64,000 nt of DNA from Tribonema minus (taxonomy: Eukaryota > Sar > Xanthophyceae > Tribonematales > Tribonemataceae). The position numbers were made by a program, and so were the translations under genes. The stretch spans positions 558,001 through 622,000 of the forward strand of contig JAFCMP010000112.1 in assembly GCA_017506865.1 (NCBI GenBank). Direction: 5' to 3'. Shown here piece after piece: positions 2-59,300 of the stretch. The notes under the pieces were generated by a model. That model saw nothing but the letters and a program-made list of their open reading frames with translations. It ran no database searches and was not told the DNA's origin. Every line of letters begins with the position of its first letter. Position 1 is the stretch's first letter.

Positions 2-3000
2 CACGCGCCGCCCGGCAGCCGCGCCAGCGCTCAGCCCGCGCACGCACAAGGGCGCACGCGCAGCCCCGCATCGTTTGCAGCTCGAGAGCTCAGCGACGAT
101 GAGGGGGAGCGGGTCCGCAGCGGCGACGCGCCGTCGCGTGCGACCGGCGGCAGCGCTCAGCTCCCGCCGGCGCTCGGCGGCGCGCGCAGCCTGAACTGCG
201 CATCGCCGCCGCGGCGCAGCGACGACGACGACGGCGACGCGGAGGCGCAGGCCTGCGGCGATGTCATGGACGAGGGCGGGGAGGAGGAGGAAGAGGAGGA
301 AGAGGAGGACGAAGAGAGCGTGTGCAGCGCCGCCGCCGCTGACGCCTCCGACAGTTACGACACGTCCGACACGGAGCCGCGCTCCACGCTGCGGCGCGGC
401 GCCGCCGCTGCCCCGCAGCCTACGCGCGGCGAGGCCGATTGGGCGGCACTGCTGCCGCTGTCGCCGCTGCTGCCGCCGCCTCAGCAGGCGCCGCAGGCGC
501 GCGCGCCGCCGCCGCCGCCGCCGCTGCTGAGCGTCGGCCCCATTGTTGAAGCTGGCGGTGAAGATGCGGATGCGGACTTGCCGCAGCGGCGGCAGGCGGC
601 GTCGCCGCGCGGCAGCGAGGACGACGAGGATGCGTCCGCTGCTCAGCGCATCCGCGAGCTGTACAATGCCGCGCTCACGGCCAGCAAGGACAGCAGGTGG
701 GTCACCGCGGCGGCTGCACCGGGAGGGCGCGCTGGCGCTGCGAATGAATCCTTGTTGGCAGTTCCAGCGTTCACGCTACGGTTATCTGTTCAAGGCACAG
801 AATGCGAGTGCATGCCTCAGTCGTATGACGCATCATTGTTACAATGGATACTTCATGTTGTACTTCATATGCAACGCCGCAACTGCGCATCAATGCGCAA
901 GAGCTGTTGCGCTGATACTTTACAATGCGAACCACTTTCCCCCCCGCCCGCGCGCAAACGCAGCTCATCGGAGCACGCGCGGTCGCCGAAGTCATACTCA
1001 GAGTCCACGTGCAGCGAGTCGGATTCCAGCTCTCCGTGGCAATACTCGCCCGAGGAGGCAGCAGCGGCGCTGGCCACCGGGGAGGGTGATGGGGAGCACT
1101 CGGAGAGGCACATGCCCATGTTCGACTGCCTGTTGGTGGTGGGGGTACCGGATGAGTGGGACCTGAGGTGAGTCACAGGCTTGAAGATGAAGTTACGCTA
1201 AGAAGGGGTGTTGTCAGCGCTGGGGCGCTCACTGCTGCCATTGCTGCAATGTACTGGGTGCCGCGCGGGTGCTGCGCCGCTGCTTTCGGCGGTGCGCAGG
1301 GGGGGGAGGTCCAGGGGTGGTGCGTGGAATGTGCTAGTATCCGCAGCAGTCATCCACGTCTCTTGCCCACATCACATGGCCGTGCCCCTTGACAAAGCGG
1401 TGTTTGCACGGGAATATGACACTGTGTCATTTTACGCATGTAGCACACTCTTGCAGGTGGCGGAGGACCCGCTCAGGCACTGCAGCATATGCGCACAAAC
1501 TGGGCCTCACGCTGCACTTATCACGGTATGCTACTTTACAGTACGGGTACTGAAGCAGTGCTCAGCCAAGTGTTGATTGAGGGCTACTGGCACAAACTGG
1601 CACAAGCAGCAGCCCCCCCCACGTTTACTCCTCCCTTACCAAGCCTTTGGCTTTCGGCGCGAAAGTGCGCCCTCAATCCTCTCACCCACTCACTTGCTCA
1701 CTCACCGCCCCCCCCCCCCCACCACCCCCCCCATCCCCATCCCTCAGCGACGTGCCATGCGCCAACAGCGGCAGCAGCTCCGCCTCCGACGCCGCCAGCG
1801 ACAGCGACAGCGATAACCGCGACGACGGCGTGCTGGGCTCGCCGCGCGCGCTGTGGGGCGGCAGCAGCAGCGCTCAGACGCCGCCCGAGAGCCCCGCGCA
1901 GCGCGTCGCAGCGCAGATGGGGCGGCTGCGCGATCACGTGGCTGCGCAGACGAGCCGCCTGCTCGGCGCGCGGCAGGACGCGGCGGCGGGCGGCGCGGCG
2001 GCGGCGGCGGCAGCGCAGCAGCACTTCTTCGCCGCCGAGGCGCCGTCGCCGCCGCCGCCGCCGCCTGCTGAGGTGAGCGACGCTTGCCGTGTTGACGGAG
2101 GGTCGTGTTTGCACGCTCATGCTGCATCGCCACAGTAGGCGCTTTGGGTGAGAGCTGCGGCAGAGGTCACACACAGCAGCAGCGCTGCTAGCGTCGCTGC
2201 CACCGCTGCCATCCCATAGTGCGCAATGTGCGCGCAGCGCTGCCAATGCCACGCGCAGCCCCCCCCCGCCCCCTGCGCACCGCCTTTGACCAGGCGTCGT
2301 GGTCAGCGCATCTTGCAAGTCATGCCTCCGCGGCCAGCACCCCCTGCTGCAACGCGCGCTGACATCACTCTCGCTGCGCCGCGTCACGCTGCAGCAGCGC
2401 ACAGCGGCGGCGGCGCGGCGCGGGCCCCACGACCCGGTGCCGCACGCGTGCGGCTGGCGCGGCCGCCTCGCGCCGCAGGTGCTGCTGCGCTACCCCGCCG
2501 ACGCCGCGCTTCCGTGCAACAACGTCGCCGACTACTGCTTCCCGTGGGGCATACAGGTGCGCACGGCGCGTGTCGCGCGGTGCGTCCGCGCAGCGGACCA
2601 TTGGGGGTCGGGAATGTTTTTGCAGCGCCGACCCCGCCGGCGTGCTCGGTCCGCGAGTACACCGTTGAACTCAGTGAGCAGCGGTGGCTCCCGCGCAGCA
2701 GCCGTGCGCCATGATGGACCGCGTGTGGCGCTTTCGCTTGCAGACCACTGAAGGCGCCTGCGCTGCTGCGCATCTTTGCCATGTCACTGCAGCATCATGT
2801 GCACGTGTGTTGGTGTGGCGTCTCGCCTGCAGAGAGCCCATCTCAGATCGCCGTACGACATCTTCAAAATTATTGTACTCATGTATGTATGACACCATGG
2901 CACCCATTGAGGTAGTACGACGACTACTGAACACCGTTGCTCGTCACCCCGTGCGCATGCCCCTCGCCCGAGCCCCCGAACGAGTCCATGAGCGCGCTGA

Positions 3001-6000
3001 ACCCCCTCTTTGGCGTGTCGCCCATTGAAGTACAACTCATGAAATTGAACCCCCTGTCACCTGTCACCGCCCGCAGGTGGACCCCATGCCCCCAGACGAT
3101 TCCATGAGCGCGCTGATTGACCTCCTCTACGGCGCATCACCCGCTGAAGCTGTATGACCATTGAACACATCCTCGTCATCTCCCCCCCACACACACCAGG
3201 TGGACCCGGTGCCCCTAGACGAGTCCATGAGCGCGCTGAACGACCTCCTCTGCGGCGCGTCACTCATTGAAGCACCAGTCATGATTTTTTTACCCCCCTG
3301 TCACTGCCCCCCCCCCCCCCCCCCCCCTTGCCAGGTGGACCCAGTGCCCCTGGACGAGTCCATGAGCGCGCTGAACGACCTGCTCTACGGCGCGTCGCCC
3401 GTGCGGCGCGGCGACGCGTCCTTCGTCTTCAGCTTCTGCGGCGACCACGGCTTCAGCCGCGGCGGCGGGCGCGCCGCGGCGCAGCGCATGTACGGCGTCT
3501 GCGTCGTCGTGCAGCAGCTCCACGTCAGCGGCGCGGCGGCGCCGGGTGCGTGAGACGCGCGCGCGCTTTGCGTAGCGACTACAAGTGTGCTGTGCTGAAG
3601 GGGTAGCGAGTCGTTTGCGGTTGTGCAGGGAGCTGCGCTGCCCGCCCCCTCCCCCCTCGTGACTGCAGTGGCGGGGGTGCGCAGGCGTCGCGGATTGGCT
3701 TAGGGCTGTGTCGCAATGTGATGGCGGCACGTGCCAGCGGCAGGCTGCGGGTGCAGAGCTCACACAGTGCCTTGGTCGCAGTTGTGCCGTGCCGTGCAAC
3801 GAGCGTAACATCGAGCACGGTACGTGTGAGGGGCGGCTGCACAAAACATTGGTTCCGGGGTTTTCTGCGATGCACCATGTACTTAAAACGCAGGACTCAT
3901 GTTTGCAGCCAACCCGTGGCGTGCACCAGCCATTGTCATCATGCCGTGTGCATCCCCCCGGTAGCAGCACACAGCACTGGCGTAGCCTTGGTGCACTGCG
4001 CCCCCCGCAGCGTACTCTGGCGTGCAATGCGCTCATGCAGAGACACAGGCGGTGATGCTCATGTGACGCTGTCACGCATCGCTCGTCATGCGACAGAACC
4101 GCCAGCTCCGGTCGTGGCCACAGCTCAAGGAGTCAAGAAGGCAACGCGTGCATGATTGCCCGAGACGGCGCCTCCATCAGTCCCCCCCCCTCCCCCCCCC
4201 CTCCCCCTCGTGCAGCGCACACACGTGTGCTGAATTTGCCTCCTCAAACCTCTCTCTTACGCGCCGCCGCCGCCGCCGCAGACACCGCAGACCCAGACAC
4301 GGACGCGCCCAGCTCCTGCGACCGCTGTGTCTCCAAGGCGTACTGCCTCCTCACGCGCCGCCCCTTCCTGGACCTCCACCTCAAGATCCTGTGGGAGGTG
4401 CTCGACGCGGAGCGCGTGGCGCGCGCGGAGGCCGTGGCAGCGCTCGTCCGCGGCAGCAGCGGAGGCGGCAGCGCGCGCCGCCGCCGCCACGACCCCGGGC
4501 CGCTGGAGATTGCCGAGGCTTGCGCCGCCGCAGGTGCGCACGCGCGTCGGGATCTTGGGCGCGCTGCTTTCGCATGATGGCTGCATCATGATGCCTTGTG
4601 GCTGCTTTGGGCGGCCGCCGCTGGCTCTGCGCTGCGAGTGTGTGGTAGGGGCGCTGCATGATCGCGCGTGCTGCGCCGCTTCTGTGGACGCCCCGCCAGT
4701 GCCGTCGTGTTGCGCGGGAAGTGCTGGGGGTCGATCGCTGAGGCGTGAGAGTGCCAGGACAAGCATATCAGTGTGGCAGGCGGCGGCGGGCGGCGCGCAC
4801 GCGGCTTGTGACGTCCAACGCTCACGCTGACCGTTGATTGTTGACTGTTGACATGGGGTCGTATTGCGATCAACAACAGCGCTCGGTACGTGCGCTTTAG
4901 GCCACCCCGCGCAGCAACCGTCCCACGACTCCGCACAGACTTACACTTTGCATACAGTGCTTGCGCCCGGCAGCACTCGCCAACCCATGCAGCCCCACGC
5001 TTACCTAGAGGACCGACACAGATTACACGTTAAGTGATTCGCACGTCTCTCGCATGCCTACTACGCTGGAACAACAACCCTTCGCCTGCCCTGCTACGAC
5101 CTTCTGTTGTCCGAGACGCGGCTTGACCGTCGAACACGCGTGACCTCACAACGCGACATCCCCCCTCGTTGTTTCTCTGACAGGATACGTGTGGGAACTC
5201 ACACCGCGTCATCCCCCCTTGTTCTTTTCCAACACAGGCGTGCGATCGCGCGAGCTCGTGCTCGACGCGTGCCGCCGCTACCGCTGCCTCGTGCCGCCCA
5301 AGCCGGGCCGCCTGCTGCGCCACGCGGCGCTGCCGGGGCTGGCGCCGCTGGAGTGGGTGCGGCCGCGCGCAGTGCGCAAGCGCAAGGACCGACGCATCAA
5401 CAAGGTACGTGCCCGCGCTGAGCTGTGCCGTTGCGGAAGTTCATATTCAACTTTGAAGTGTGTGGAAAGCGGGGCTGGCGCCGCTGGAGTGGGTGCGGCC
5501 GCGCGCGGCACGCAAACGCAAAGACCGACGCATCACCAAGGTGCGCGCCCGCTGTGCGCGCCCGCTGAGCTGCGCTGCTGCAGAAGTCCATGTTCAAAAT
5601 TGTAGTCTGTGGCTGGATGTACAGTACTGGCAGCCAGCTGCAGTTGGCCTGGCGGTCAGTGAGCGTTTAGAATCATAGGTAGCGCCTGCGTTCAGTTGCG
5701 CGCACGAACGCGTGCGAGCACACGCTTGCCACGAGCACAAGAGCTGCATATCTTGCACTTTTCATAGGGTTTTTGCCCCTCATGCGGACGTTGATAAAAG
5801 CACTTGCAGCGCGTACCATGACTGCAAGAAGATTAGGGGTGCCGCTGTAGCGATATCCCGGTGCGGGTCATTGTCTGGCGTGCCTGACGGACGTCACTGC
5901 CCACCCGGGCCGCGTTGGTCTGTGACCGAGCGCGGCGGCCGCACAACTGAAGTCTCGTCGATGCTATAGGCAGACCTTCCTGCATGATGTCATTGGGTAG

Positions 6001-9000
6001 TTTACAGTAGTGCTTGGGTCTCGGCCCAAGCATTGCTCAGACACGTGATGTCGGCCGCATAAGCAGGTCTGCGCAGTCGTGGAGCAGTGCATGGAATATG
6101 CGCTTGGCAGAAAGACTCATCCAAAGGCATAGCAACGTTCTCATATGCTTCGGACATGTTCATCAAGGATGTGTGTGAGTATGTGAAGTGCGCCCCAGAC
6201 CGGAGGTACATGTCAGTCGCTTGCGGATGCTTTGTTGGGGGTGATATGGGAGGCCCGGTGAACCACCGTCCCGCTCATCAAGGAGGCGATGCTTTGCTTA
6301 GTTATATAGCCTTTCTTTCTAGCGTCAGCGCCTGGCGCCCAGTGACTCCCTCTGCTTATCTTTATGATATCGGGGTTCACGTAGATAGCCACAATCTCCA
6401 GTTCAGGGCCCATTATGGTGACCTTGGCCTGCATGAAAACTTTGAGATGGAGTCTGCGTGGAGCTGGGTGGCCCTAAGACGGGTCTGTCTGTGGGGGGAG
6501 AGTCTTGTAGCTTTGTTTGGTATCCCTGCTAGTATGTGGGGGACAGTCGCTTGCGGGAGCTTTGTTGGGGGTGATGTGGGGGGCGGGGTGTGGCGTGCAA
6601 GCTTTGCATGCTACATCCAAGAGTGAGAACAAGGCGACACACCTACAACATGGCATTTCCACAGCCACAAGTGGAATATAATAAGAGTACATGGGCCTTT
6701 ATAAATACAAGTCCATACGTACATGTCAGCAAGCATGCCCAACCAGAACGTCGATGATTGCACATGCTGGCGGCAGTCCGGCATCCTTGGGTTAGGGTTA
6801 GGATTAGGGGTTAGGGTTAGGGTTAGGGTTAGGAGTAGGGTTAGGATTAGGGTTAGGGTTAGGGGTTTGGATTAGGGTTAGGGTTAGGATTAGGATTAGG
6901 GTTAGGGTTAGGGTTAGGGTTAGGATTAGGGTTAGGCGTGTGCGCCCCTAAGCACGGGTGCGCGCACAGTGTGTCTGTGCCGTGCTGAGCACTGCGCTGC
7001 CATGCTATGTGCCTGGCATTTGGCGAATTCCTGTAGCGCCAGTACACTGCTTCAAGTCCATACGTACACTGCTTCTAGCATACTCCTCGAGAACTGGGCA
7101 CTGCACATGCCAATTGAACATCACGATACTGTAGCAGCAGTGGGACCTCGACCCAATGCCGACGCGAGTCGTGATGATCAACCCAGCCAACAGTGACCTC
7201 AATCATGCATCATCTCAACATTGTGGTCGCTGGCCGCTCCACGCTGCAGCCTTGGTCAAGCCAAATGGAATTTTAGTGGCGGCACAAGTAGCTGTACTGC
7301 GCATCTTGCCCCCCCCCCCCCCTCCCCTCCCCTGCGCCCCCCCTCTGAATGCCCTCCATCCCACTCACTGCCACCAGCCCGCTCCCCCATGTCCCCCCAC
7401 CGCAGATGCCAGCCCACATGCAGGACGGCCTGGCGATGATGGCGGAGGTTGGCCCCTGGGCCCTCCCCTGCGCGCTGTCGTGGGTGCCGCCGCGCACGCT
7501 GCTGTTTGTCGTTGGAGCGCTGCTGTGCGAGCACCAGGTAAGCAGACCTACGCGTCGTGTACATGCGTGACTCACATGCATGCACACTGGCACGCATACT
7601 GTGTGAGCACCAGGCAAGCATACTTGCGCGCGGGCATAGGCGTACCTTCCACGCATGCACGATGACGCGCATGTACACTGGCACGTGTGGTGCTGAACAA
7701 AGGAACGGGGGGGGGGGGGGGGGATGTTCGTGGCTGCCATTGGGGTTTGTTGTGTGGGGTCTGTATTGAGGGGGGTTCGGTCGTGCGCGCCATCAGTGCA
7801 GCTGAACGCTGTGACATGAGAGCGCCGCAGGCATTCACTGCTCCACAGTGGCGGAAAGTACGTGCATGCCCGCGTGTTGTCTCGGTCAAGCCCGTCACGT
7901 TGTTCGAGTCATCGCGCTGCGGCGGCTCATACGTGACAGTGCTCACCTCCGCTGGCTGCACAATATTCTTACAGAATTGCCAGCACGACATCACAAATGC
8001 TGGCCCCTCTAGCTGCGCCCCAGCAGATTGCCTGATTGCAGTATCTTAAAGGCTCCAACAGCACATCATTTATAAGTCACCATTGAAATGCCGCAACTTC
8101 ACAGCTGCAGCGCCTCGCGCCTCATTTTGCCACCGCAAGCCGTGACTCAACGGAGCCCAGAGCCCCCGCGGTCAATCGCGCTTGTGCACTGCAATCGCTC
8201 CAGCCCGCTCACCCCCCCCCCCAAACGCCCCCCCCCACCCCCCACCCCCTCTCAGGTCATCGTCACCAGCACGCGCGCCGGCCTGGTCTCCAGCGCCGTG
8301 CTCGCGCTCGCGTCGCTGCTGCGGCCGCTGCTGTGGGTGGGCCTGCTCGTCCCGGTGCTGCCGGCGGGCACGTGGGACGTCATGGACGCGCCCGTGCCGT
8401 ACCTGCTCGGCGCGCTGCGGCCACCGCGCGGCGCGGCCGCGGCGGCGGCGGCGGCGGCGGCGCGCGCGCTGCCGGCATGCCAGTCCGACCTGCAGAGCGG
8501 CCAGGTGCGCGTCGCGCGCTGCGCGGGGGTTTGAGTCGGGTTTGAAGTAGGGTTAGGGAGTGTTTAATGTGTGCGCGTGTCACGGTGTGCTTGGCGGCGC
8601 AGGCACTGCGGGGGGTTCAGGGGAGGACGTGGACGATGGTGTGGTACGCTCGTTGCGGGCATACCGCTGCAGCCCGGAGACTCGCCGCGGCATGCCACGC
8701 CGCGTGACGGCAGCCCATATGTCACACATTCGCATCCCCGGGTCTCCTGCAGTTGCTGTTGAACATGACAACACCGCGGGAGCGCTGCCAGCGCACGCCG
8801 CCCCCGAGCTGCGCGTTTCACCTCCGCCAACCGTCGCGCGCGGCGCTGACGATGCCGACGGCTGCGTGCCTCCCTCACCTGTATCTCCCCTCCCTGCTTC
8901 CCTTCTGCCCCCATCACTGCTGTGCGCGCAGATCCTGCTGGACCTGGACGCGCGCGCGGTTCTCGTGCGCGACGACGACGTGCACGCGCAGCGCGTGTCG

Positions 9001-10106: not shown

Positions 10107-11565
10107 GCGCGTGCCCCCCCCCCCCCCACCGGGCTCCCCTGATGAGCGCCAACAGCTCCCACTCCAGCGCATCTCGCAAAGATATTACTTCCAATGCGTC
10201 CGGAGCTTCGCGACGCGGCCTTGCGCGCGCGGCGGCGTCAAGCGCGCTGGCAATTGCAGCATGACAGCCTCTGCCGCAATCAAAAGCGCTGCGACCTGTG
10301 CCCAGCGCCGCGGCATCAGCAGCGGCGTGCCGCGGGCGCCGATACCCTGCGACACGGCCGCCGCGCTGCGCTGCAGGGCTCTGGCGCTGCTGCCGCGCCG
10401 CGCTCGTCGCGCTGCTGCTGCTGCCGCCGCACACCGCTGCAACGCTACAACCGGCGCTGCCGCCGCGACGCGCTCGGTCCGCTGCTGTTGCACGCTGCGA
10501 CTCCACTGCGGCGCGCAGCTCGCGGCCAGACAGCAAGTCGCGTGCCCGCTCGTCCGCGGCGTGTATGTGTCTGTGTGAGATTGTTTGTCGGTGCGCTACG
10601 TGTACGTGCATTTTGTTCAATGTTTACCATCCGCTCCAGCAAGGAAGTAAGTGGGGACTGGCGCGGTGCCCCCCACTGCGCTGTCACCGAAATGCTATGC
10701 TATACATTGCTGAGCGCTGTGTTAGTCGTCATACAGCCACGACTGCACTCGATCCACGCACTGCACCATGGCTGGGCACTGCCCGACTGACGCAGTACAG
10801 CCCTTAACCTCTGATTTAGCTTGCTTTGTGCGCCTCTCTAGGAGCTTGCTTTGTGCTTCCCTGTGTCTTGCTGACGGTTATGGATTGGTAGGTGTTGCCC
10901 ACGCCATGTGCACAATCTTGTCAGACTTTGACTTTCAGTACTGTGTGATGGCAGTACTTTGGGGTACTTTTTATTAATTCTCGCTCAGGGCGCGAAAAAG
11001 CCCAGATGATGGTCTAACTTGATGCTGCTGTACGGAATCTGCATGTCGTTTGACTTCTGAAAGTGTCTCAACGACAAACCCCTCAAACTTTGGGGTACTT
11101 CTTGTTGAAGCACATGTATTGTAAGGAGCATGACAATGACTTCAAACGGCAGGGCAGGCTAGAATCGACGTCAGGAACATTGGAGCATATACAGCGGGCA
11201 GCAGCACACCATAGCAGGCACTGAAAAGTAGAGCGGCCGTGCATGACATCATTTCATCTACTCATGACTCATAAACCACTGATCATCACTAAAGGAGCAT
11301 TGTAGTGCTCTCAGCTGGTTACTCTTGAAGTCGCAATGCGTCTTTGCCAAATCGCGCCTGTTGGAAGGCTGTAGCACTGGATCTACAAATTACCCAAACT
11401 AGACCGGTGGAAACATGCTAAGCAATTATCTACTTGACGAGCAAGCGACGCTCCCCTATGCCAAAATACTAGTGGACCGACCATACAGCCGTGACCCTAC
11501 ATCGAGCGCTACGCCCCGGCAGGCGCTTCAATCACTCTGCACCACAATGCAGTCATCGCTGTCAT
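10107..11565. other. Intergenic region after the DENN gene
   Basis: The first ~500 bp stay GC-rich and carry overlapping long frames on both strands (for example on the minus strand below 10611) that show no recognisable domain and no consistent splice pattern; I do not call a gene. The rest is less GC-rich and contains dispersed repeat A (10962-11090). Sequence just before 11566 resembles that beside the second paralog (about 20750-20954), so the duplicated block extends beyond the coding part. Confidence 0.5.
10962..11090 (+). repeat. Dispersed repeat A, copy 1
   Basis: Shares the GTACTTTTTATTAATTC start, a CTCAGGGCGCGAAAAAGCCC core and a GAAAGTGTC..CAACGACAA end with copies at 22800-22967 (inverted), 42683-42848 and 42861-42980. 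No coding potential seen. Confidence 0.8.
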
Positions 11566-12760: not shown

Positions 12761-12902
12761 GACGCAAGCCCCTCCACGCTCTCAGCGCAACACTGCTGCC
12801 TGGCCGGGGCGCGAAAATTCAAACTGACCACTTGAAGTTGTATATTATGTCCTGGACCGCATGGGCTGCGCGCACGATAAATCGGGCTTGCAATAACTAA
12901 AT

Positions 12903-17069: not shown

Positions 17070-17102
17070 TACGGTGGATGAGGGGAGCGCCGCACCGGCG
17101 GC

Positions 17103-19595: not shown

Positions 19596-19741
19596 GAAAC
19601 GACTTGAAGTTGAAATGGGGCGGGCCCTGCCCCGCCCCTGGGACACGGTGGCGGCTGCCCCTCGTGGAGGGTGCCGAGCGTTGGCTGAACAGCAGGCACA
19701 CAGGGTGGGAGTCACCAACGTGGCGCCAGCAAAATCCACCC

Positions 19742-23997: not shown

Positions 23998-26900
23998 CTA
24001 GCTCGCCGCCGGCGCGCCGCCGCTGGCGCTGTCCGGCGACGCGTCGGGGCTCGAGACGACGGCGGGCGCCGCCAGCTGCTCCTCCACGCGCGTGTTGTAG
24101 CTGCTGCACGCGAGGCACTTGTGGTAGCCCGACATGTGGTACGGGACGGTCGTGAAGGCCTCGCAGTCGTGGCAGAGCACCTGCGCAGTGACGTAGAGGG
24201 GGGGGGGGGGGGGGGGGGGGGGGGGTGAGCGCGCGGCTGCAGCGAGGGCTTCGATTGGTGGTGGTTTGGCTACGCCGTGGTGCACATGTCTGTGACGCGC
24301 TGGCGTTATGTAGCGGAACTCATGAGCTGCGTCGTCAGGTGTTGCATCGGCCAGGTGGCTGCCACACCAGGAAGGTCTGCACGTGATGCACTGACACAGC
24401 GAGCTCACTGCATTACTGTGTTACGCTGCGGCAATTACGCTGCGGCAACAAGTGCTTGGAAGCCCGGTCTCCGCCGCCCGTGTATGCGCCGCCAACGCAC
24501 ATGGGGGGGGGGGGAGGGAGCGGATATGCGATCACGCGCTGAGGGCTCTCCAAACGCACCCCCTCTTGATCACGCGCACTTCTGCCGCGGTGGTACACCA
24601 TGAGAACTCACAGGCTGCGCAGCGCGAACAGGCGTCGCACCCTTTCAGCTTGCCGCGGCTGCCGCACCTGACGCACACCGCCGTACCCGAACACACGGGG
24701 TGGGCACAGTGCGCGAGCAGACGCCCTTCTCACCTTGACGCGCCCCGTGTCCATCGCACACACACACCTGCCGCACCAGACGCACACCGTCAAACCCTGA
24801 CGTACGGGAGCCACGCAGTGCTAGCAGGCAGCGCAAGCGGAGAAGCCCCTCTCACCTTGACGCGCCCCCTGTCTACCATATATATGTACACAGAGCTGCT
24901 ACATCTTACACATACCGTCGAACCCAAATGCGGGGCAGACACAGAGCGCGAGCCCTTCTCACCTTGGCGCGGCGCCCCGCGTACTCCGGCGGCATGGGCT
25001 GCGCCGCGACGACAGCATCCAGCTGGCCAAAGTACTCCGTCATGTCCTCCATCGAGCGCAGGCAGATGGGGCAGCGGTACCAGTGCGCCTGCTCCTCCGC
25101 GTGGCGCACGTACTCGCGGTAGCAGTTCAGGTGCAGGAAGTGGCCGCAGCGCAGGCCCTGCAGGGGAGTGCGCGCGAGGGGATGCCAAGGTTAGCGCAGG
25201 GGCATTGCAACTGATGAGCAGCCGGCTCGTGGGGGAAGTTGATGTGACTTTCATGTTGAGGTGCAGGAAGTGGCCGCAGCGCAGGCCCTGCACGAATGCG
25301 CGCGCAAAGCCATGCATGCCAAGGTCAGTGCAGGGGCATGATAACGGCTGATGCGCAGCCGGCTCGTGGGGGGCAGTTGAAGAGGCTCGCGTGCTCGCCA
25401 ACAGGCGTGTGTGCTCTGCTGCAGCACTGTGGCGTATCACGATGGGGATGCGCAAGGGGCGCAGAAGGCAGCACTAGGCATGTGTTGACAAGAACACGAG
25501 GCCGTGGCGCGGCGCGTGGCGCCGTGTCAGTCACATGTTTTGCTCAGAAGTACGTGCACGCATCTGTGATCCCCCCCCCCCCCCCGACTCTCACCCTGCA
25601 AAGAGCACATGTTTTTGAATCTCTGCATATACATGCGTCGCGCAGAGCAGAGGCACAAACTAGCAGCGCACGCCACTGACCTTGACCTGCTGCGTCGACT
25701 CGAACATGCCCGTGGAGCAGATGGGGCAGTTGCTCTCGAGCGAGTGCGTGACGCAGCGGTGCGTGTCGGCGCTCTCGACCGTGACGCACGCGTTGCACTT
25801 CATGCAGTGGCAGTAGTCGACGCCGAGGCCCTTGCCGAGGCGGCACACGTTGCAGTACGGGCAGTGGTAGATGTCCTTGGACGCGTCGTCGTCGTGGAGG
25901 TGGCAGATGGCGCAGTAGTAGCGCGACAGCGCTCGCCGCGCGGGCGCCGCTGCTGCCGCTGCCGCTGCTGCTGCTGCCGTGGCCAATGCGCTGCTGCAGT
26001 TTCCAGGACAGAGCGAGGGATGTGCAACACTGCGTCAGGGCTGCAGCATCAGAGCAGTGTGACAGCGGTGGCGCCGCGCTGAAACGTAGATGGCGCCGGG
26101 GGCACGAAATGCAGCCATGGCGGCGCAGTTGAAGTGTGGGGGTTCCGCCGCGCAGTGCCAGCGTGCAGGTTGCGCACGCTGTGCTCCGTCCCCCACAGCC
26201 GCAGCACTCAGCGGGCTCGCTGGACGCACAAGTTCGTGCAAAAAAGCTGCAAGCGCACCCCATACCTGGGCGTTCCCACAGCAGTGTCGGCCGCGCCGCA
26301 GGGGCATGCTGCCACCGCCGCAGCTGCGCCCTCCAGCGCGCCTGGCGCTGCTGCACTGGCAGTGGAGCTGTTGCTGGGGCAGGCGGCGTGCGCGCACGCG
26401 CCGGAAATGGGCTGCAGCGCTCCGCAGACCATGCACAGCATTTCCACGACGCGGTAGCGGTCCATGGTGTGATCCATCACCTGCATGCAGCGGCAGGGAA
26501 AGCGCATCAGTGAGCGGCGCCGTAAAGCACCTCATGCGGCCGGTCTGCGCCTCAAGCACGATCAAGTGGCTCAAGCACGACCGAGTGGCACCATGGAGCG
26601 AGTCATACGGTAGTTGGTTAGCGGGTCACGTGGTCGAGGAGCTTTGTAACCCTAACCCTAACCCTAACCCTAAGGCACTGCGCCGCGTACTTCCACACCT
26701 CCTACGCTCATCAAAACAGCAAAGGCATCACAGCTTCATGTACGACACCACGGAGGCGGGCCACTGCCAGTCCTGCCTGCGGCGAGCAACACGCGCAGAA
26801 ACTGACATCCCTCGCATGGCAACCGTCACTGCGCTGGGCACTGCCGCAGCGACGGCGGCGCGCACCTGATCATGGCAGAGGCGGCAGGTGAAGAGGCGGC

Positions 26901-42848: not shown

Positions 42849-42860
42849 AGTACTACTCAT

Positions 42861-45858: not shown

Positions 45859-48800
45859 CTACTGAAATGCGCTTGCGTCCGCGTCGTCCCCCCCCTCGCC
45901 CCCCTCTGCGCCCCCCTCTTGTATGGTGAAGGGCTCCAGCTCCAGCGCGCCGGCATCAAATTCTGCCAGGAAGGCCTTGAGAGCCTCCTCGGTCAGTGTT
46001 TCCTGTCGCGCATTGGATCAAAAAGCAGCGGACGCGGGCGTGTGAGACGCGCGTGCAGGGCTGCTGCGCAGAAGCTGTGTCGAGTCAAGGAGGAGGGGAG
46101 GAGGGGCAGGGGCGCTGTGTGTTGGCCAGAGGTGCCAGGCAGTGCGTGCAAAGCTGCTGCGACGACGCAGCATTGAGTCAAGAGGGGGGGGGGGGGGGGG
46201 GGCTGTGTGCTGGCCTGAGGTGCCGGGCACTCGGTCGTGCAGGCTTTGGGGAGCTGCATGTGGCGACGGCGGACGCCGTGCTGAGGCCGGCGCTGCGCAA
46301 GCGCAGGCCTTGCGAGAACGATTGCACGCACGATCAAGAGCCATGCAGTCAAAAGCCATGGGGCGGGAAGGCCAGCAATAACCTCCTTAGGGTAGCAGAG
46401 GCACTCAGAATGGCCCCTAGACATCTGAGCTATGCCTTGTCGCCGCCTGTTGCATGCCCGGAGTAGCGACGCTGAGCCCCGCGGGCAATGTGCGTGTGCA
46501 CCAGTCAGCACAAGCCACAGAAAAAGCTCTGTGGGCATCCGATGCGCATCCACTCCGCAGCGGCGCAGCAACGCCAGCGTGCAATTGCGACGATGGTGGC
46601 ATCGCGTGCGCAGGAGCGGCGCATGTGTGTGGGTGGGGAGGACGCCGCGATCACGCTCTGTGGCGCCAATTCACGCCGCCTGCCCAATCCGTGAGAAACC
46701 CGCTAAGTAGTGCCAAGCACGCGAAGGCCGCAGCGAGACCATTGCGCAGATGCCGCAAATGAACAGAGGTACCCATATTGAAGTGTCAACTCCCTGGCGA
46801 GAGAGGTGCATGACCGCTGCTGAGCACTGACCTCGCTGATGGCGCGCTTCCCCTCGATGATGGACACCAGCCCGAAGCGCGGGCGCATGGCGTCCTTCTT
46901 GCTCTTCATGAACTTCCACTTCCCCTGCGAAATCGCCGCGGCGGCGCAGACGGCAGCGGCTGACGGTCAGTCTTTGGGTTCACATGAAGCCAACAACTCA
47001 GGCGGTCGGGTGTTCTTCGCAGATAGGCATCGACAGATGGACATGGGCGCACGCCTCGAGCTGCTGTTGGATCGTGCGAGGATTGCAGCGCGCATGTGAG
47101 GGCACGCTGAGCCCCCTCCCCCCTTCTCCCCCGCTCCTCCTCATAAGGCACGCGCACTGTTATCATGCTTGTAAGGGCAGGCGCAATATGGATGGACTGA
47201 GAATCCGGATGATTATGAGAAAGCCAGCGTTCACACCCACAGTACCAGGCATGATGGCCATCCGTGTGTCGGCACACACACTCATGCCTCGCCGCCCCCC
47301 GCAGTGAACGCGCACACTAAGCCGCTTCTGGCCAATCGCTCCGCATACTCCGCCTGCAGCTGCATCTCCCCAGCGCGCAGCGCAGACTGCTAATGACAGC
47401 ATAGACCGTTGAAGCACACCACCACACTAAGAAAGAAACAGAAACACGCCACCGCCTCGCAGCACATCGCAACGCAACGCCACCCCACACGTCAGACTGG
47501 ACGCACGCCACGCCTCAAAGACAGCCAACTACGGCGTCCCGGGCCGAACCAGCCACGGCAGACTGTGCACTGACACCCACAATGCCGCCTATGGCGAGCG
47601 CTGCTGCTGCTGCGCACCTGGATCTCCTCCAGCCCGCTCAGCTTGCGGATGGTGGCCGACAGCTGGTCGATCTCCGTGGCGGCCAGGAAGGTGGCCTTGC
47701 GTGGCGCCTCGAGAACGGCTGCGCCCCCCTGTTCCAAGGCGGCCTGCACGCGGCGCGGCGCGGCGGGCGAAACGCGCGTGAGCTGGAGTGCCAAGCTTTC
47801 TGCTGATATCTTCAAGAGTTGAAAATTTCATGATGTTGTGTTCAAATGTGGTCGTCAATGGGATTTCCCCAGTTTTTGGATGGCAAATTTCGACCAAAAG
47901 TCGTGCGCGGTACACGCACCGCGGAGGAGCGAGCACATAGGTGGTGTTGGTGGTGCATGGAGGCCTGGCGGTTGCGCGTCGCATGAGGGGCCCTGCTTGG
48001 AGTAGTCAGATGCCCGCACAGAGCGCTGCCCAACGTAACGACAGATTCGGCACGGCAGTGAATGACTGTCTGCAGTGCATGTCAAAGAGTCCATCAAGTC
48101 CGGCAGGCTGCTTGCAGCGCAGCGGATGGGCTGCAACCTCCCACGACGCCACCCCTGAAACTACCGACGTCATCGCCTTGAACTACGCAGCGACAATGGC
48201 CATGCGCAAGTATCAGGCGACCACCATGGGCACTCACGGAGAATGCCGCCGCCCTCTCCTCGGCCAGCGGCTTGGCGATGGCGCTGAGCTTGGCCTGGTC
48301 CTCCTTGCTGGCGCCGTCCATGAAGAGCATCACCACGGGGCCCCGCGCGAGCGCCTCCGGAGAGTCGCCTGGTGAACATGTGACATGCGTGCGCCAACAT
48401 CATCATCATCAACCACGGCCGCGCCTCAAAATGGCAACCAGCGATGCGGCAAACGTGGAGCTGAACCACCGCATACTTCTACGTGTTCTGTCTTGAGCCA
48501 GGTCAAGCATACTGGTCACAAGTACTGCATTGACGGCACTGTCCATTGCAAAACACCATAGTGGCGATGGCCTTACATCAAATCAGCCTCACGTTGACTC
48601 ACAGAACACCCTTGCATGCGCAACAAACGGACGAGGTCATATACATGCAATTGACTTGCTGGAAGCCAGTGAGTGCAGCGTGCACATGTCACCCTCATCT
48701 GCATCAGCTTTCCATGCGGTCAGACAATGCGCACTGTGTAAAACACACATATATATATGCCTCACACGCGCCAAGCGACTGTGACTCAGACTCACTCAGG

Positions 48801-51800
48801 TCCGCGAAGGGCTTGGGGTGCCACGGGAAGTTGGCGCCGGGCGTGCCCGTCTGCACGTCCTTGGTGACGTCCATGCGCCCGTTGGCAGTGATCAGCTGGT
48901 GGCGGCGAGCAAGAGACGCAGGCAAACAGCGCATCAGATGATGAGGCTTTGTGGTGACGTCGACGCATGCGTTGGCGGTGATCAGCTGGTGGCAATTGCA
49001 TCAAGCAACGGCAGTGGCGATGCAGACAAACAGCGCGACAGAAGATAAGAGTTCGTGGTGTCGTCCATGCACTCGTTGGCGGTGATCAGCTGGCGCCAGT
49101 TTCAGCGGCGGGCAACGAGCCGTGCAGACACGACTGAAATGAGTGCGGCAGGGGATGGGACAAAGGGTTTCCGGCACTGTGGACACTGAGCGGTGGCAAT
49201 GATCAGCTGGTGGCAGTTACAGCCACGAGCGACGGCAGTGGTGACGCAAAAGATGGGCGTGGCAGGGGATGGGACAAGGGGTGTTGATCGCCGCTGATAC
49301 TGAGCTCCATATAGTAAAAGTCGAAGACATGTCAGTGCGGAGCACCAGGACACTCGCAAGCAGCGCCAGCTGCCTTCATTCTGAGACTTAGACAGCGCGC
49401 TGCGAAAAAACAGAATAGCTCCCGAGACAACTCAATTGACTCACCCCCTTCGAACACAGCGAGATGGCGAGCGCACCACACGCACCGTCTTTCACATTGC
49501 GCAGGAGACAGCACGAGGACGCCCAGCCTTTCACATCAATACCATTGAAACCATACAGCAGACCATACTGCGGTACTGCAAAATGGAACATTAATCATGA
49601 CCATCCGACGGCGGCGGCGGCGGCAAGGCGACAGGGGCGGCGCGCGCACCTTGTCGTTCTCGTCAAAGATGAGCAGCGTCGGCAGGCCCTGCACGCCGAG
49701 CAGGCGCGGCACGATGGCGCGGTGCTTGCTGCCGTACGGGATGGCCAGCCACGGCATGGTGCCAAAGTAGCTCTTCTGCTCGGACTCCTCCTTGTCGCTG
49801 CGGGGGCCAGGGGGTAGGTAGGTACATAGCGGCAGTGTGACAGAGAGTGTTGAGGAGCGGGGCGGGGAGGGGGTGCAGTGGGGGCCGAGCAGCGGCGCTG
49901 CACTGCCAAGCGTTGATCAGCTGTTGAACATGCTCTACTTAGCAGCTGTTGGCGGTGACGCGCCGCAGCGTGCCTGCGGAGCTGCATGTGCGATTCGCCC
50001 GGACACCGTTGACACCCGCGAATGGCGTGAAGTCAAAGCTTTCAATTAGAGGAGTCTGCTTTTGACGGAGAGCAGCAAATCAGCAGAATTGTGCGCATGA
50101 TGCACCAACCATGACAGTGCGTCGGCGTTCGGCAGCATGAAACTGACAGTACGTTGATGTTGTGGTCACAATGTGGTGTCAGCATTGTGCAGGGAGGTGC
50201 GCCAAGGACAGCGCTGCACGGTCACTGCTATGCCCACCGTTACGCCACGCAGCTCAACAACCACGAGCGCAAGCGCCGCGCTAAGCGCGCAAGCGTATGA
50301 CCCAATTATAGCTGCAGCTGCTGCACGAATGGAGCCAGTCCATGTCCTGGTGAAACATGCTGCATGCAGGACAGGCCGCAAAGCTCTAATCCATGGCTTG
50401 GTACAAATGAATGCTGCGCGCCGAAGCGCAGGCGCGAGGCGACTGCAAGCACCACATGTCAACTCTTGAAGATGTGTTGTTGATGAAGTCTGGACTGGGG
50501 ACGCTTGGCAGTTTGCGCGCGCCGCTCATTGCCGCACCCATGTTGAAGTGCAGACAGCGCTTCAAGGGTGACGCACCTGCCAATGTAGACGATCTCAAGC
50601 TCCTTGCCGGCAGCCTTGACGGCCTCGTACGTCTCCTTCAGCAGCGGCGTGAACTGCATTTCGTGGGCAGACCACGCACAGCAAAAATGCAACACCAGAG
50701 GCGCATGTGAGGGACGAATCTCACGTAAAGTGCATCATGAGGGTGACTACAGCCGTAGTGTTCACTCACGAGCTGTGCTCAGAACTGCGCATTGCTACAT
50801 CTTACCAGATGACTAGACTATAGCATGACGCCAGCAGCAATGCTCAGGCATGTATGGGGCCGCCCCAAAACGGCGAGAGGTTTTGCCAAAAGGCACTATT
50901 CTGCACATCAACACAGGACCGGGGGGGGGAGGTAGATCGTCCGTTCGTGTCAAACAGGACCTGCTCCTGAATGCCCCGAGAGTGCAAGCCGCATCTGTAT
51001 CGCGCACTGCGCCGAGCGAGCTGCTGCAGGCGAGCGGCGAGGTCGGCGCAAGTGCTTATTCCAGCAGGTCCTGTTTGTCACACAGCGCAACGCTCGTCCG
51101 CCGGCAGCAGCGCCGGCGCGCCGCGCGGCACTCCTTCCCCAGCTGAACGCGCAAAATGCTGGTTGTCGGGTTACGGTTATGGGTAGTACCGTAGGCTGGC
51201 ATGTAGGTACACACCTGCTTGCAGGGCGCGCACCAGTCGGCGCTGAAGTACAAGCCTAGGACCTTCCCCTGCAGCGCCTCGGGGCCGACCTTGGTGCCGT
51301 CCGCGCGCTCAAACTCGGGCCCCAGCAGGTCGCGCAGCCCCTTGTTGTGCCATGGGAAGTCCTCCGGGAAGTAGGCCATGTTGCTGTGGGTCAAGTTGGG
51401 GGGCAAGAAAGGGGGGGGGGGGGGGAAGGGGTAGTGTTCATGAGTGAAATCAGGTACGAGTGCAGATGAACTCTATGATGTGGCATGCGATATCAGCTGT
51501 AGGTGAAAGGCTCAGCGTGGTGTCACAATGAGTGCTCCGAAGTGTGCATGTGGGCGGGGGGTCGATGCCAACAAATGAATTCATGGACTTCAACATCAGA
51601 CGTTAACGCTCGGCCAGGCAATGTGAACATGCTTCTCAAGAGGCAAGCGTCAAAGATGGCCGACGAAGGCCATCAAGCAGAGGCATGTTCGCAGCGCGCT
51701 ACGCACAAAAGCCATCATCAACATTATGCGACTCAAAAGGGTGCTCTACAGTAATTGAAGTATCGGCAGCATTGCTCCTCACTCACGTGTAGCCGTCGGT

Positions 51801-54800
51801 GGTGATAATTTTTCCCTGCGGGTCCAGGATGACCACGGAGGGCAGCACGGAGACGCCGGCCTTGCGGATGAGGTTGATCGCTGTGGCGTTGTCGGGCTTC
51901 ACGCTGAGCCACGGCATGTCCTTGAACGCCTCCTGCGGAAGCCACAGCCCACAATGGGTCGGGTGAGTTTTGAATACATGTGAGTATACATGTATACATG
52001 CAAGTACATCGCTTTCAAGGGTGGCTCAAGCTTCCACTTGGGCGAGTGGCGTACTTCCAGCGCAAAATGCGCAACCATGTCCCAGCGGGCCTGCGAGTGC
52101 GAGGGTCGCTGCTGAGGCCCGTGCGGCGGAGGTCCCATGTCAACGCACCCCACCATGAACACTCTGTGTGGCACAGTCATGCTGCAAAAACAGCCCCACC
52201 CACACAATCCAGCAGGAATACAAGCAAACACGGCATAAGACGGCAAAAGCTGCTCTGGTACGATTGCGGGCGGCTGCAAAGTTGAAGTTGTCACATGTTC
52301 AACAAACGGGTCTGAGCGCTGCCACGGACCTGCGTCTTCTCCGCGGCGTCCTGCACGGGCACGTAGACCACCTCCAGCGGCTGCCCCGCCTTCTGCGCGC
52401 GCTCATACACGCTCTTCATCACGATGGATGACGCCACGAAGCCGGGCCGCCCCTCCTCCTGTGAAGAGGGGAGTGACAAATTCAACAAGCGTACAGCTGA
52501 AGTTTGTACAGCTGTGCAGCATCACGCTCGTTTCTTACGATGGGCGGCCCCGCAAAGCCGGGCTGCCACCCTCCTCCTGTGAACACAGGGGAGGTAGCAA
52601 GTTTAACAGATGTGCAGCACTTGAAGTTTGTGCAGCACGTGCGTGATGCCTCACGCTCCTGTTATTGCCATCTGCAACCCCGGGGAGGGCAGACTGCTTC
52701 CACTGCCGCATAGCGCAGCGCTGCATACGGTGGACCTTCGAGCAATGTTTTGAAGCGATCATTGCCCTTATGCCAGGTTCCCAACGACACTCTGCCGCGA
52801 GCCCCCCGTACCTATGTTTCGCAGCACGACCAGACTTTGAATTTGCGATCGGGCACTACGTATTGCATGGTGACGTTCTCGAAGGCGAGCGGGGCGCAAG
52901 AGAATAAACATACACTTCCTGCCTTGAAGTTTTTTCGTGCGATGTGACGTGCCAAAGCTCAGCCTGCGCGCTGAATTTCTGCCTCACTGACAGTCAAAGT
53001 CGATTCTGAGCACCAACATGGAGCACCTGGCAGCTAAATCAACAGTGTTTTTTGCTACCAATGCATGTTGTCACTGCTTGCCCTGAGTTGGGTCACGGGT
53101 CGAGCAACGGCACTTCTGCCAACTGCTGATAGAGCATTGACAAACTGTTGCACAAGCGCGGCAAGGCGTGTCACTGCTCATCAGCGGCTGGGCTGAGCGT
53201 TGCTGCAACGTGTTCCAAGCACACATACTGACGGGGCCATCCCCATCTAGTCTAGTGAGACTTTCACAAAGCTGATACTTCAGACAAACTATTCATCAAG
53301 TGCGGCAACATTCTGACAGCAGAAAGCTGCTGATGCTGTTTTGCTAGCTGCAAATCTCACAACGCTTGCTTCTTGCAGCCGCTGAGAGACCGACCTGTGT
53401 CACAGGTGAGCAGCGTGATGGCCCGAAGCTGGCATGGGCAGGCTACGCTGCAAGCTGGCACATAGCACAGTGCGTCAGCAGCTAGCTCCTGTACTTGTGG
53501 ACTTGTGTTTATAAAGGCTGCGAGGGAGGCCGGGTGTCCTATGCAATCATAAACCTTGCTCCCTCTAAGCAGCAGCTTAGTCTGTACAGTGTGAGCGCTC
53601 CACTCCGCTCTCAAATTCCACCAGCCATGGCAGTTGGCTGTGGCTTACTACAATGCGACCGCAATACGTACGCAGTCCACTGGTCGCAGGCGGCAGCCCC
53701 AGGAGGTCATTGTCCCCGTGCAATTAAGCCTTTCAAGCTCATTGTCAATCTTTAACCATCCGGTAAATCCTTGCCTCGTCAGAAGGCATCACACCGACGC
53801 CGCAGCATTGAAGCATATTCCTACCCACAGGCGCCAGAGGACAGATTATCCTGTACATACGGTATCGGCTGCCTGCGCGTGGAAGATTTAATCCCGCACA
53901 CTACGTCACATATACTTGGCCTACATCATATCAACATCCTCCATCATTCTTCTCAACTTTCAACTACATCCTGGAAGACTTCGCGCGGGTGCCTCACCTG
54001 ATTGGCTCCCGCCAGCTGCTCCTCCACCGCCTGCGAGGTGAAGTACAGCGCCACGTGCTTCCCTTCCAGCGCAGCCCCCGTCTCCACCTCCTCCGTAACG
54101 CCCTTGCTCGCGTCCGCTACCTGGACTCACGCCGCACCCGCACGAGCGAGAGTGGGCGGTGTGAGGCGGCAGTGCTGTCCAGTGTTGTTAATCCCGTGCC
54201 CCCGGGGGGGGAAGGGAGTTACCGGGAGTAAGGGAGCGACCAGGATCTAAAGGGTGCTTCCGGCACTCCCGGCTAACCCTAGTTGAAGTTGGAAAAACCA
54301 TAGTTGAAGTTGGACAAGCCCTAGTTGAAGATCGGCTCATTTTGTGGCACATGGCACTCTCTCCTCATCGATGAGCATGCTGCTACACCGCCTCACCGCC
54401 TCACACTGTCTGACAACACTTAGGCTGTCTCAAAACACACGCGTGGCGCCTGTGAAGTTCAACGGTGAAGTAAGATCAACTGTTTTTCAAAACGTAAAGA
54501 AATGGCAGAGCAGCGCAGCAGCGAAGGCACGCCAGCGCAGAACATTATAACCAACTTCAAGATCCCTGAGCCGGGAGTGCCGGGAGCGAGCCAGATTCTG
54601 GCTACTCCCACGGGACCACGGGCGCGAGTGCCTCAAAGTGCCGGGATTAACAACGCTGGTGCTGTCAGCTGACGGCGTCTCTGTCTGCATCAACGCAGCT
54701 GCGTGCGCCGCCTGGCATATCAACGTTGTTTGTGAGCACGGCGACGACAATGGGAAGTAGTGCAGATGGTGTTTGCCATCGCAGCGCATGCGGTGCGCGT

Positions 54801-56319: not shown

Positions 56320-59300
56320 ATGGCCGACGCACAGGTGGCAGCTGCCCCGGAGGGCAGCAACAAGGTCATGCTGGCGTGCTATGTGGCCATGTTTACTCTG
56401 TGGGGACTGGCGCAGGTGGTGTTGGTGAGTTGCGGTGCCGGCGAGGACACATAATTATTGTGTGAGGTGGGAGATGGCAGCGCTGTCGCGTCCGTGGAGC
56501 TCCGGACTCAAATTCAAAGCTTGCTGCAATCATCGACTCTTTCCAATCGCCCTGCCGCACGCCGGGCGTGCTCCGCGTCAATTACACCCATCATGTTCAA
56601 CTGGCCAGCAGGATTTTCTGCCCCGTGATCCGCTGTGACGATCATTGATGCACTCAATTGTCGTCATCAAGACCTTCCATTATCAAGCCTCGTACTACAT
56701 CAAGAAGACACTGTGCCGCGATGCCCGAATTGCAAACTGGTCAGATCATGGACTAGACAGCTCAGCGGCAACCGGACCCCTCGATGGCATGTCGCATTGC
56801 CATGAGGAGTAGAATGTGAGCCTGGCAGTTCTGCCAGGTGTCCTCAGCATGGCCTGATCAGTCTGAGCGGCTTTCTCACAGCGTGTACTTCTGCCATACC
56901 CCATCCAATGCGACATCAACCATGACGCGCTTGGCTGGCTGCAGCTGCTGAGAATGGCCATTCAATTGAGTGCACAGCGGCCACCACATAAATAGGAACC
57001 AAAAGCATGGTCAATAGCTTCAACTCTGTCTGCCCGCTGCCCCCTCCCCCCTCCCCCGCCCCCCCCGCTTTGGGCGCCCAGATACCCGTGCCGGTGAACC
57101 TCATCAGCATGAGCACCATCATCATCTACGTGGGCGCGCACAGGAGCCTGCGGCTGCGCGACAAGGCGCACCCCGACAACGCCGAGTCGGAGACGCTGTC
57201 CAAGGAGGACGCCATGAAGTTCCCGCTCGTTGGCAGCGCCACGCTCTTTGGCCTGTACATGCTCTTCAAGCTGCTGGACAAGGTGCGCGCTTGCACTTGC
57301 GCTTGCACTTGCGCTTGCGGTCGCGGACGTGCAGCGGTACGTCACTGCTGAAGATGGCCATCTGCAGGTGCTGTGCGCAGAGAAGAGGACCAGCAACTGC
57401 CGTTCATCGGCTTGCAGTTGCGGACGTTCAGTGGTACTTTGCTGCTGAAGATGGCCATCTGCAGTTGATGCGAACAGAGAAGTGGGCCAGCAACTGCCGG
57501 TCATCGGCTGGCACTGGTGGCGAGTGTAAGCTTGTGCTTTGCCATTTGTGACTTGTGGGCACACGGGCTCATCTGTCGCGCCGCTTGCAGCGCTGCTACG
57601 TCTTGCACTGTCCAGGAACCTTCACGAGTGTTGCCCGTGCGAGCGCTGCTGCACACCTGGTATGTACAACATGCACCGCCAGTGCACTTTCCACGGTATA
57701 CGCCAGTTGGGTCCTAGGCGCACACCTGCACAATGCACACCACGGTGCTGGCACCTTGAGGTGCATGCGCACAAAGCCAATTATTTGCGGCTGTCTTCTA
57801 CGTGGCCCTGATGTGCTCGCCACATGTGTTACAACTTGCAGCTGCCGTCTGTTCAGAACCACCAAGCGCCACGCGGTCGCTGACCGTGCGCTTCACGTGT
57901 TGAAGTCACGCGTCAACGACGGCCGTGCAGCCGTCGCGTCAGCGCACGCCGGCTCACACATGCACTCTCTACTGCGCGCCGTTCGCCCCGCTCGCATCGC
58001 AGGACATGGTGAACCTGGTGCTCTCGGTGTACTTCAGCGGCATGGGCGCGCTCACGCTGGCGGGCACGTTTGACCCGCTCGTGCACGTCGTCGTCAAGAG
58101 CGAGACGCTGTACGGCCGCAAGTTCAACCTCCCGTGGGTCGGCGAGGTGGACCTGACCTTCACGCCCAGCGGACTGGTGAGCGGGCCCTAGGGTTAGGGT
58201 AGTCTGCGAGTGCAAATGCGTGGTGCAACCTTCACAACGCGTCGCTGCTGCCGTGTTGCTCTCGGAAGGCCTTGCTCGCGACCGCAGCGTCGCAACACGC
58301 CCCGCATAGCTGCTGATCCGATTGGGTACACTTCTGCAGCTGCACACAACGTGACTTGAGTGTCAGGGAAGCGGATCGACGCCTGATCACACTCGACCTT
58401 GCTGATCAGCGCTCGCACGATAGGCAGCGTCGCACAGTGTGCATTGATGCCGCAGGCCAGCGCGGCACCGGCCCTTGTTACCTGTGCCACCCGCTGTTCT
58501 GCTCCTACGGGGCTCGATGACGTCAGACATGCTGCTAATGCTGCCGCCGCTGCTGCTGCTGCTGCGTGCGCTCTGACCGGCGCAGGTGAGCCTGGCATTC
58601 GGCCTGGCCTTCGGCGCGGTCTACTTCCAGACCAAGCACTGGACGATGAACAACATCCTGGGCATCAGCTTCTGCGTGCAGGCGCTGGAGCGCATCTCGC
58701 TGGGCTCTTACAAGGTACGCGCGCGCAAATGAGACGCAGCAGCGCTCGTCAGCAGGGAACTTGCGCGGCGCGCGATCGGCGGCAGCTGGCTTGTGTTGGG
58801 TCTGCGGTTGCTGAGCCGTGCTGCATTGGCTCACTGTTCTTCGAGCCGCACAGTTGCCGTTGATGAGGGCAGCAGCAGCAACACGCCGTCGGACGGCAAA
58901 GCACTAGCGCAAGCGCTCCTTCTCTGTACAATAGTGCGTGGCACGTGCAATTTATGCTGGTTTTGTAGTAATTGCATGCTGCGTTGTGCAGCCTTGGGAC
59001 CAGGGGTCGGATAAGTATGTCTGGCTGTTTGATCCGCACAGGCCTTTGTTGGACACCGCAGCAGCATGCTTAATGCAGGTCAACGTGCAACTTCAACTTC
59101 AGCTTCTGTGTTCTGTCGTCTTGTTGCCCTCACGCCCATGCCTCCGCCGTGGCGCTTGCAGATTGGGGCGATACTGCTGGTGGGCCTCTTCTTTTACGAC
59201 ATCTTCTGGGTGTTTGGCACGGAGGTCATGGTCACCGTTGCCAAGTCCTTCGACGGGCCCATCAAGGTGCGTCCGCCGCTCCGCCTTGTGTCAGGATCCA

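Follow-up and report, generated by a model that had tools for sequence, protein, structure and literature searches.

Tandem repeats recur in four genes in one 64,000-bp stretch of the Tribonema minus (Xanthophyceae) genome, chiefly across exon-intron junctions. The stretch, called here the window, covers positions 558,001 to 622,000 of the forward strand of contig JAFCMP010000112.1 (assembly GCA_017506865.1). A sequence-only reading of it had named DENN, BRUTUS-like, nucleoredoxin-like and peptidase genes, and had described direct repeats at their junctions that carry the splice site together with some exon. Pfam agrees with the names: the matches are uDENN and DENN, CHY zinc finger and zinc ribbon, thioredoxin-like and Peptidase_A22B, respectively (an earlier Pfam search with a single raw frame gave no match). 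The repeats were located by BLAST self-comparison of the window, and the splice borders were then inspected base by base. Every junction repeat of that reading is present, each holding copies of a donor or an acceptor plus the exon edge, and the intronic pairs are present as well. These repeats have a period of 90-148 bp and a BLAST identity of 68-85%, and copies in the window are 0-16 bp apart (up to 39 bp in other sequence sampled, at C 70897). We think it rather probable that segments of about 70-180 bp around splice junctions are tandemly duplicated more often than sequence elsewhere, and that the inner copy is spliced out.

The DENN gene (plus strand) has two such sites. By BLAST self-comparison, a four-copy array at 2972..3400, with a unit of about 116-135 bp, lies across a 3′ splice junction. 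Its acceptor copies, ...AG|GTGGACCC, have the AG ending at 3076, 3199 and 3334, of which the last is probably the functional one, as the exon continues beyond it. A tandem pair of 136 bp at 5334..5612 spans a 5′ junction, with 71 bp of exon edge and about 61 bp of intron; the donor copies are AAG|GTACGT and AAG|GTGCGC (exon edges at 5404 and 5540). A further plus-strand pair of 76 bp, at 7523..7672, crosses the predicted 5′ junction of an exon in a DENN-domain prediction; it has a GC decoy donor and was absent from the sequence-only reading. In the BRUTUS-like gene (minus strand), a 5′ junction is found three times at 24658..24985, with three CAAG|GTGAGA donors at edges 24734, 24856 and 24963. 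The outer copy adjoins the exon 24963-25157, and a decoy was taken for an exon by the gene finder (see below). The pair of 130 bp at 25125..25387 crosses a 3′ junction: two GCAG|GGCCTGCG acceptors have exon edges at 25157 and 25287, and the exon parts differ at 1 of 33 sites. At 30732..31011, a pair of 148 bp crosses a 5′ junction and has two CGACAAG|GTG donors (edges 30816 and 30954). The outer donor is that at 30954; the gene finder wrongly picked the inner one. Here the exon part is identical at 58 of 58 sites, and the intron part differs at 17 of 73.

The nucleoredoxin-like gene, also on the minus strand, has an intronic pair (93 bp) at 46051..46229 and two duplicated 3′ junctions. One, at 48862..49282, exists in about four copies with a unit of 90-104 bp and has the acceptor copies CCACCAG|CTGATCAC (edges 48895 and 48985). 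The other, at 52404..52642, is a pair of 115 bp with two TTCACAG|GAGGAGG acceptors (edges 52458 and 52576). In the signal peptide peptidase gene (plus strand), an intronic pair of 97 bp at 57313..57513 starts 31 bp past the exon edge, the exon ending ...GACAAG at 57282.

The wider analysis drew on a genome of 158 Mb in 554 contigs, searched in full with motifs, and on a detailed sample of 334 kb from the same genome in four stretches that include the window (264 kb and 304 kb at earlier stages). In the sample, the junctions are predictions of a self-trained ab initio hidden Markov gene finder, which gave 298 introns with a median of 454 bp, donors of the GT[GA][AC]GT type and acceptors of the GCAG type; the exons of the window are GC-rich. 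The predicted proteins fit known families: XPD helicase, ABCG transporter, glutathione synthase, protein kinase, DAGK, SPP, thioredoxin-like and DENN. Tandem units of 40-400 bp were sought, and a low-complexity filter removed 4 of 52 clusters at the 304-kb stage. A local 3-mer-block shuffle gave one cluster, against 48 in the real 304 kb after this filter; chance origin of the repeats is excluded by this control. The full sample gave 56 filtered clusters: 21 across a single junction, 5 across multiple junctions, 10 intron-interior, 5 intergenic, 9 exon-internal, 4 at a gene edge, 1 whole-exon and 1 whole-intron. Thus 26 of the 56 cross an intron-exon boundary, or 26 per 298 predicted introns. 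Unit length among the non-exonic clusters listed is 63-212 bp.

The preference of these repeats for junctions is seen past the window and its four genes. In a simulation, 880 artificial duplications were placed at random intergenic, intron-interior and junction positions, aged with one exon copy constrained, and passed through the same detection and gene calling. Those detected were 233 intron-interior, 204 intergenic, 70 single-junction and 22 multi-junction, with a few others. Junction-crossing, intron-interior and intergenic clusters thus stand at 92:233:204 in the simulation and at 26:10:5 in the sample, a comparison that leaves out 9 exon-internal, 4 edge, 1 whole-exon and 1 whole-intron clusters. 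The odds ratio of junction-crossing to intron-interior clusters over the simulation is 6.6 (p 6e-7); against intergenic clusters the p is 1e-8. A second simulation, with ages up to 0.35 per copy, was compared at equal BLAST identity. The expected junction share is 0.24-0.34 by identity bin (0.30 overall), and that observed is 27 of 37 (p 1e-7), the whole-exon cluster being counted here with the junction class, hence 27 rather than 26. The excess is significant in every bin below 80% identity, that is, in the class of 68-80%.

The distribution along introns points the same way. Repeats cover 7.1% of the sequence lying up to 25 bp from a predicted junction, against 1.9% deeper than 400 bp in introns and 2.3% of intergenic DNA; for exon sequence farther than 150 bp from any junction the figure is 13%, owing to coding repeats. 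Unit midpoints per kb number 0.56 at 0-30 bp into introns, 0.19 at 30-60, 0.48 at 60-90 and 0.15 at 90-120, and fall to 0.03-0.07 at 120-600 bp (intergenic, 0.054). The high 60-90 bp bin is largely due to intron-interior events beginning close to the exon. For two junction events (30732 and C 17661) the midpoint was taken from the inner copy and is not in any bin. Base composition was considered as a driver and rejected: the GC content of intron-interior events (0.598 vs. 0.579) and of intergenic events (0.522 vs. 0.544) does not differ from background, and junction events have a lower GC content than segments drawn at random from junctions (0.593 vs. 0.658, p 3e-5). Once gene length is allowed for, the events do not cluster by gene (p 0.60, for 38 events and 44 genes).

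A test that needs no gene finder was made genome-wide with the donor motif AGGTGMGT, of which 11 of 42 copies in the sample lie at predicted donors. Pairs of the motif on one strand were counted and compared with pairs of the motif written backwards. At a spacing of 85-115 bp there are 496 pairs against 36 for the backwards motif; at 285-315 bp there are 187 against 16. When the number of motif copies is extrapolated from the 334-kb sample, the pairing above chance per copy at near spacing is 2.3% for the donor motif and 0.21% for the backwards one, and near minus far it is 1.6% and 0.18%, an excess of about 9-11 fold. Consecutive predicted donors are not unusually common at short spacing (4/290 vs. 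7/290), so gene structure does not explain the excess of donor pairs. The corresponding test with TTGCAGG as acceptor motif gave 376 near and 311 far pairs (backwards, 22 and 13) and was dropped: none of its 78 copies in the sample lies at a predicted acceptor, which makes it uninformative about acceptors.

What becomes of the extra copy can be read from its decay. Nineteen single-junction events could be aligned, 13 at 5′ and 6 at 3′ sites; the 5 multi-junction clusters, the whole-exon one and 2 single-junction ones without an alignable junction are left out. Between the copies there are 65 differences over 706 exon-part sites and 202 over 1216 intron-part sites, a corrected exon/intron ratio of 0.52 in which the functional copy is that assigned by the gene finder, wrongly at 30732-31011 and perhaps in others. 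Constraint on one exon copy, with drift of the other, would give such a ratio. In 16 of 19 events the splice dinucleotide of the decoy is kept, about as a divergence of 9% per copy predicts; the decoys look neutral. Neither is there a constraint on reading frame. Unit length is divisible by three in 8 of 21 single-junction events, as compared to 7 of 9 exon-internal repeats, and in 32 of the 100 genome-wide donor pairs listed (of 496). The inner copy is therefore probably absent from the mRNA normally.

Homology gives an independent view at two genes. Ahead of the duplicated CTGCTG|GTGAGC donor of XPD, the alignment with the human protein runs up to residue 471; it resumes at 472 in the following stretch, and the homologues have nothing where the prediction held 53 extra residues. 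By this alignment the two copies belong to a single intron, at its donor end (human residues 471/472), with no new intron between them. The ABCG gene (C45:170302-177540, i.e., block C 70302-77540, L032) has five junction-associated clusters in 7 kb, four of which are single-junction events with alignments. Three of these junctions fall in aligned stretches with no insertion, a gap of 20 residues in the prediction lying a few residues before one of them; the fourth is past the good alignment. The homologues of XPD and ABCG argue that the extra copy does not enter the protein. As a separate observation, the glutathione synthase gene is predicted to have a GC-AG intron (L010, about 5295-5540, event -4705) with a tandemly duplicated AAG|GCGAGT donor, the decoy also being GC.

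We envisage the process as follows. A unit made of exon edge, splice site and intron edge would be duplicated to give E|I-E|I at a donor or I|E-I|E at an acceptor (E, exon; I, intron). The spliceosome would stay with the outermost site, which is probably the one used in each case, and the inner copy, with its exon edge and splice site, would come to lie inside the intron. The protein would be unaltered and the intron longer by one unit, and the inner copy would decay as a neutral decoy; repeated events could build arrays of three to four copies. That splicing shelters such duplications from selection is well supported. As to how the duplications start, our preferred guess is staggered-break repair, in which two offset nicks would be filled in and rejoined. 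It is favored since most copies lie directly side by side, with hardly any filler between them; the tests here do not separate it from replication slippage. Vaughn and Bennetzen are reported to have described, in 2014, patch-mediated break repair giving short tandem duplications in rice, going by the title. Short tandem duplications would be common to both cases; the rice study differs in naming a mechanism of origin.

A number of results weigh against this account. The acceptor motif YCCGCAGG, 10 of whose 41 sample copies lie at acceptors, forms 96 near pairs genome-wide against 57 for its backwards form, or 0.30% vs. 0.39% per copy, and thus shows no per-copy excess; the genome-wide case depends on 5′ sites. 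The enrichment at junctions claimed by the sequence-only reading accordingly holds genome-wide for the donor motif and not for the acceptor motif. The eight events of at least 80% identity divide into four junction and four intron-interior, with no significant excess, and tandem pairs of at least 85% BLAST identity make up only 2 of 42 junction, intron-interior and intergenic clusters. A constant, ongoing process would make young pairs the commonest, so their scarcity counts against one; a past burst, instability of young copies or collapse in the assembly are possible reasons. When pairs are collapsed on the last rather than the first copy, junction events drop from 24 to 13 of 48. The exon share of junction-spanning units has a mean of 0.37 (n = 19) vs. 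0.58 in the simulation (p 0.001), so that a selection filter or an intron-side bias must be acting too; the filter may be against exon-rich decoys. At 30732..31011 the contrast between exon (0/58) and intron (23%) divergence exceeds what neutral decay of one copy predicts. Finally, the gene finder errs at the very sites in question: it placed the XPD donor 12 bp late, so that the 53 extra residues are intron-derived, took decoys for exons in the DENN and BRUTUS-like genes, and chose the inner donor at 30732-31011.

Could the excess reflect survival alone? Duplications might arise uniformly, with exon-internal copies purged unless in frame and junction and intronic copies surviving through splicing, with no hotspot at all. 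The preference for in-frame units inside exons, the lack of it at junctions, the neutral-looking decay of the decoys and the even split among the events of at least 80% identity all agree with this. Yet uniform placement in the same pipeline gives a junction share of about 0.3, against 26/36 or 27/37 observed; unit density declines inside introns, beyond the reach of protein-level selection; and, per copy, the donor motif is paired about 9-11 times as often as its backwards form. We regard survival alone as an unlikely explanation. The statement of the sequence-only reading that ordinary repeats would not prefer junctions overlooked that splicing hides junction copies from the protein, although hiding alone accounts for a junction share of only about 0.3. 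A related proposal concerns persistence rather than birth: sequence near exons would be shielded from large indels, and old duplications would last there and be lost in deep introns and intergenic DNA. If copies far from exons were short-lived, the pairs still present there should all be nearly identical, but the intron-interior and intergenic events are no younger than the junction ones (median BLAST identity 76.8%, n = 15, vs. 75.0%, n = 27; p 0.55, on small numbers). Persistence thus appears improbable, even with the excess being strongest in the older copies (68-80% identity), as it would predict.

That the decoys are functional, kept by selection as alternative or back-up splice sites, seems to us quite improbable. 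The neutral expectation already yields 16 of 19 intact dinucleotides, the ratio of 0.52 needs only one constrained copy, and there is no frame preference; what speaks for function is that the dinucleotides are often intact and that the exon part at 30732-31011 is identical throughout. The least probable source of the repeats, and a very remote one, is a dispersed element carrying splice sites. Introner elements are dispersed families that add intron sequence in some algae, and they show as near-identical introns at many unrelated loci. A candidate signature exists here: GTGMGTCAC followed by TTGAAGT within 20 bp occurs 918 times genome-wide vs. 35 for the backwards form, and TTGAAGT-type words are found in 29 of 59 donor-pair strings among the 100 listed (taken from the first 61, the two omitted having no such motif), as compared to 36 of 237 sample donors. 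A whole-genome search with the 401-bp DENN array, the only array searched, returned itself and matches of 30-35 bp. The 207 TTGAAGT contexts of the sample share an imperfect palindrome of about 10 bp and no longer element, and the motif is near the joint of the copies in only 5 of 21 single-junction events (background, 9%). An introner family is supported neither by the one-array search nor by these contexts.

Since hiding alone predicts far fewer junction cases, and the ages, in a small sample, do not fit a quicker loss at a distance from exons, we favor more frequent origin close to exon edges; this appears clearest at 5′ sites. A stronger form of this, in which splice junctions, chiefly 5′ sites, would be the tandem-duplication hotspots of the lineage, triggered by some local feature of the junction such as nicks, chromatin or a DNA structure linked to transcription or splicing, is a tentative proposal that we would not yet back. 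If it is true, introns would ratchet longer from their ends and steadily gain decoy splice sites, the raw material for alternative splicing. That the repeats lengthen introns and create decoy splice sites, as the sequence-only reading held, stands, and its interpretation overall is partly supported.

Its view that no named description exists was too strong. In potato, one tandem duplication across an intron-exon boundary of an RdRp gene has made a new intron (PMC4974935), and tandem genomic duplication is a reviewed route of intron gain (PMC3443670). The potato case resembles the present one in that a short tandem duplication crosses an intron-exon boundary, the potato unit having the acceptor, the pyrimidine tract and the exon start; here too, as in that route generally, a short piece of a gene is directly repeated next to itself. 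In potato, the mRNA acquired a new intron together with new exon sequence, whereas here the copies seem to lie inside an existing intron, with the protein unchanged and the intron longer, at many junctions. Chlamydomonas reinhardtii and Volvox carteri have more short-unit tandem repeats near intron-exon junctions (PMC3887541). The likeness is that repeat density climbs toward intron ends, here from 1.9% beyond 400 bp to 7.1% at 0-25 bp. The difference is in the units, 1-50 bp only in that study, a limitation named by its authors, against 63-212 bp in the non-exonic clusters listed here. Its passages on these repeats say nothing of duplicated splice sites or exon edges, and no word beginning with "splice" was found in its main text. 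As far as titles and the beginnings of abstracts tell, nothing in the openly licensed literature was recognized as recurrent splice-junction duplication that lengthens introns. Introns of the Chlamydomonas group are described as conspicuously long, the advantage of such length being unknown (PMC8226300). Junction duplication offers a concrete and dateable route to intron growth and decoy splice sites. The hundreds of donor-motif pairs genome-wide are moreover a natural experiment, in which the same splice site occurs twice in similar context and the copy chosen can be asked for.

A few other features deserve mention. A 6.9-kb element occurs twice in the window (12832-19741 and 34707-41616, 99.6% identical), within or next to the BRUTUS-like and nucleoredoxin-like genes, the first copy with a reverse transcriptase open reading frame (RVT_1). 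The pair is a recent retrotransposon and not a gene-cluster duplication. The first copy is flanked by two pairs of segments, 11523-11955 / 20950-21390 and 12480-12762 / 22092-22376, about 76% identical and 9.4-9.6 kb apart. TTGAAGT itself, counted on both strands of the sample, is about ten times as frequent as base composition would lead one to expect, by our estimate, and often lies within the imperfect palindrome ACTTGAAGT. TTGAAGT-type words were tried as a mark of junction units and were not convincing (9/27 vs. 120/538 junction-proximal controls; 9.7 vs. 4.3 matches/kb). Interstitial telomere-type TTAGGG arrays are present at 6787-6936 and 26647-26673, and TAGGGT- and GGGTTA-type words are over-represented in introns.

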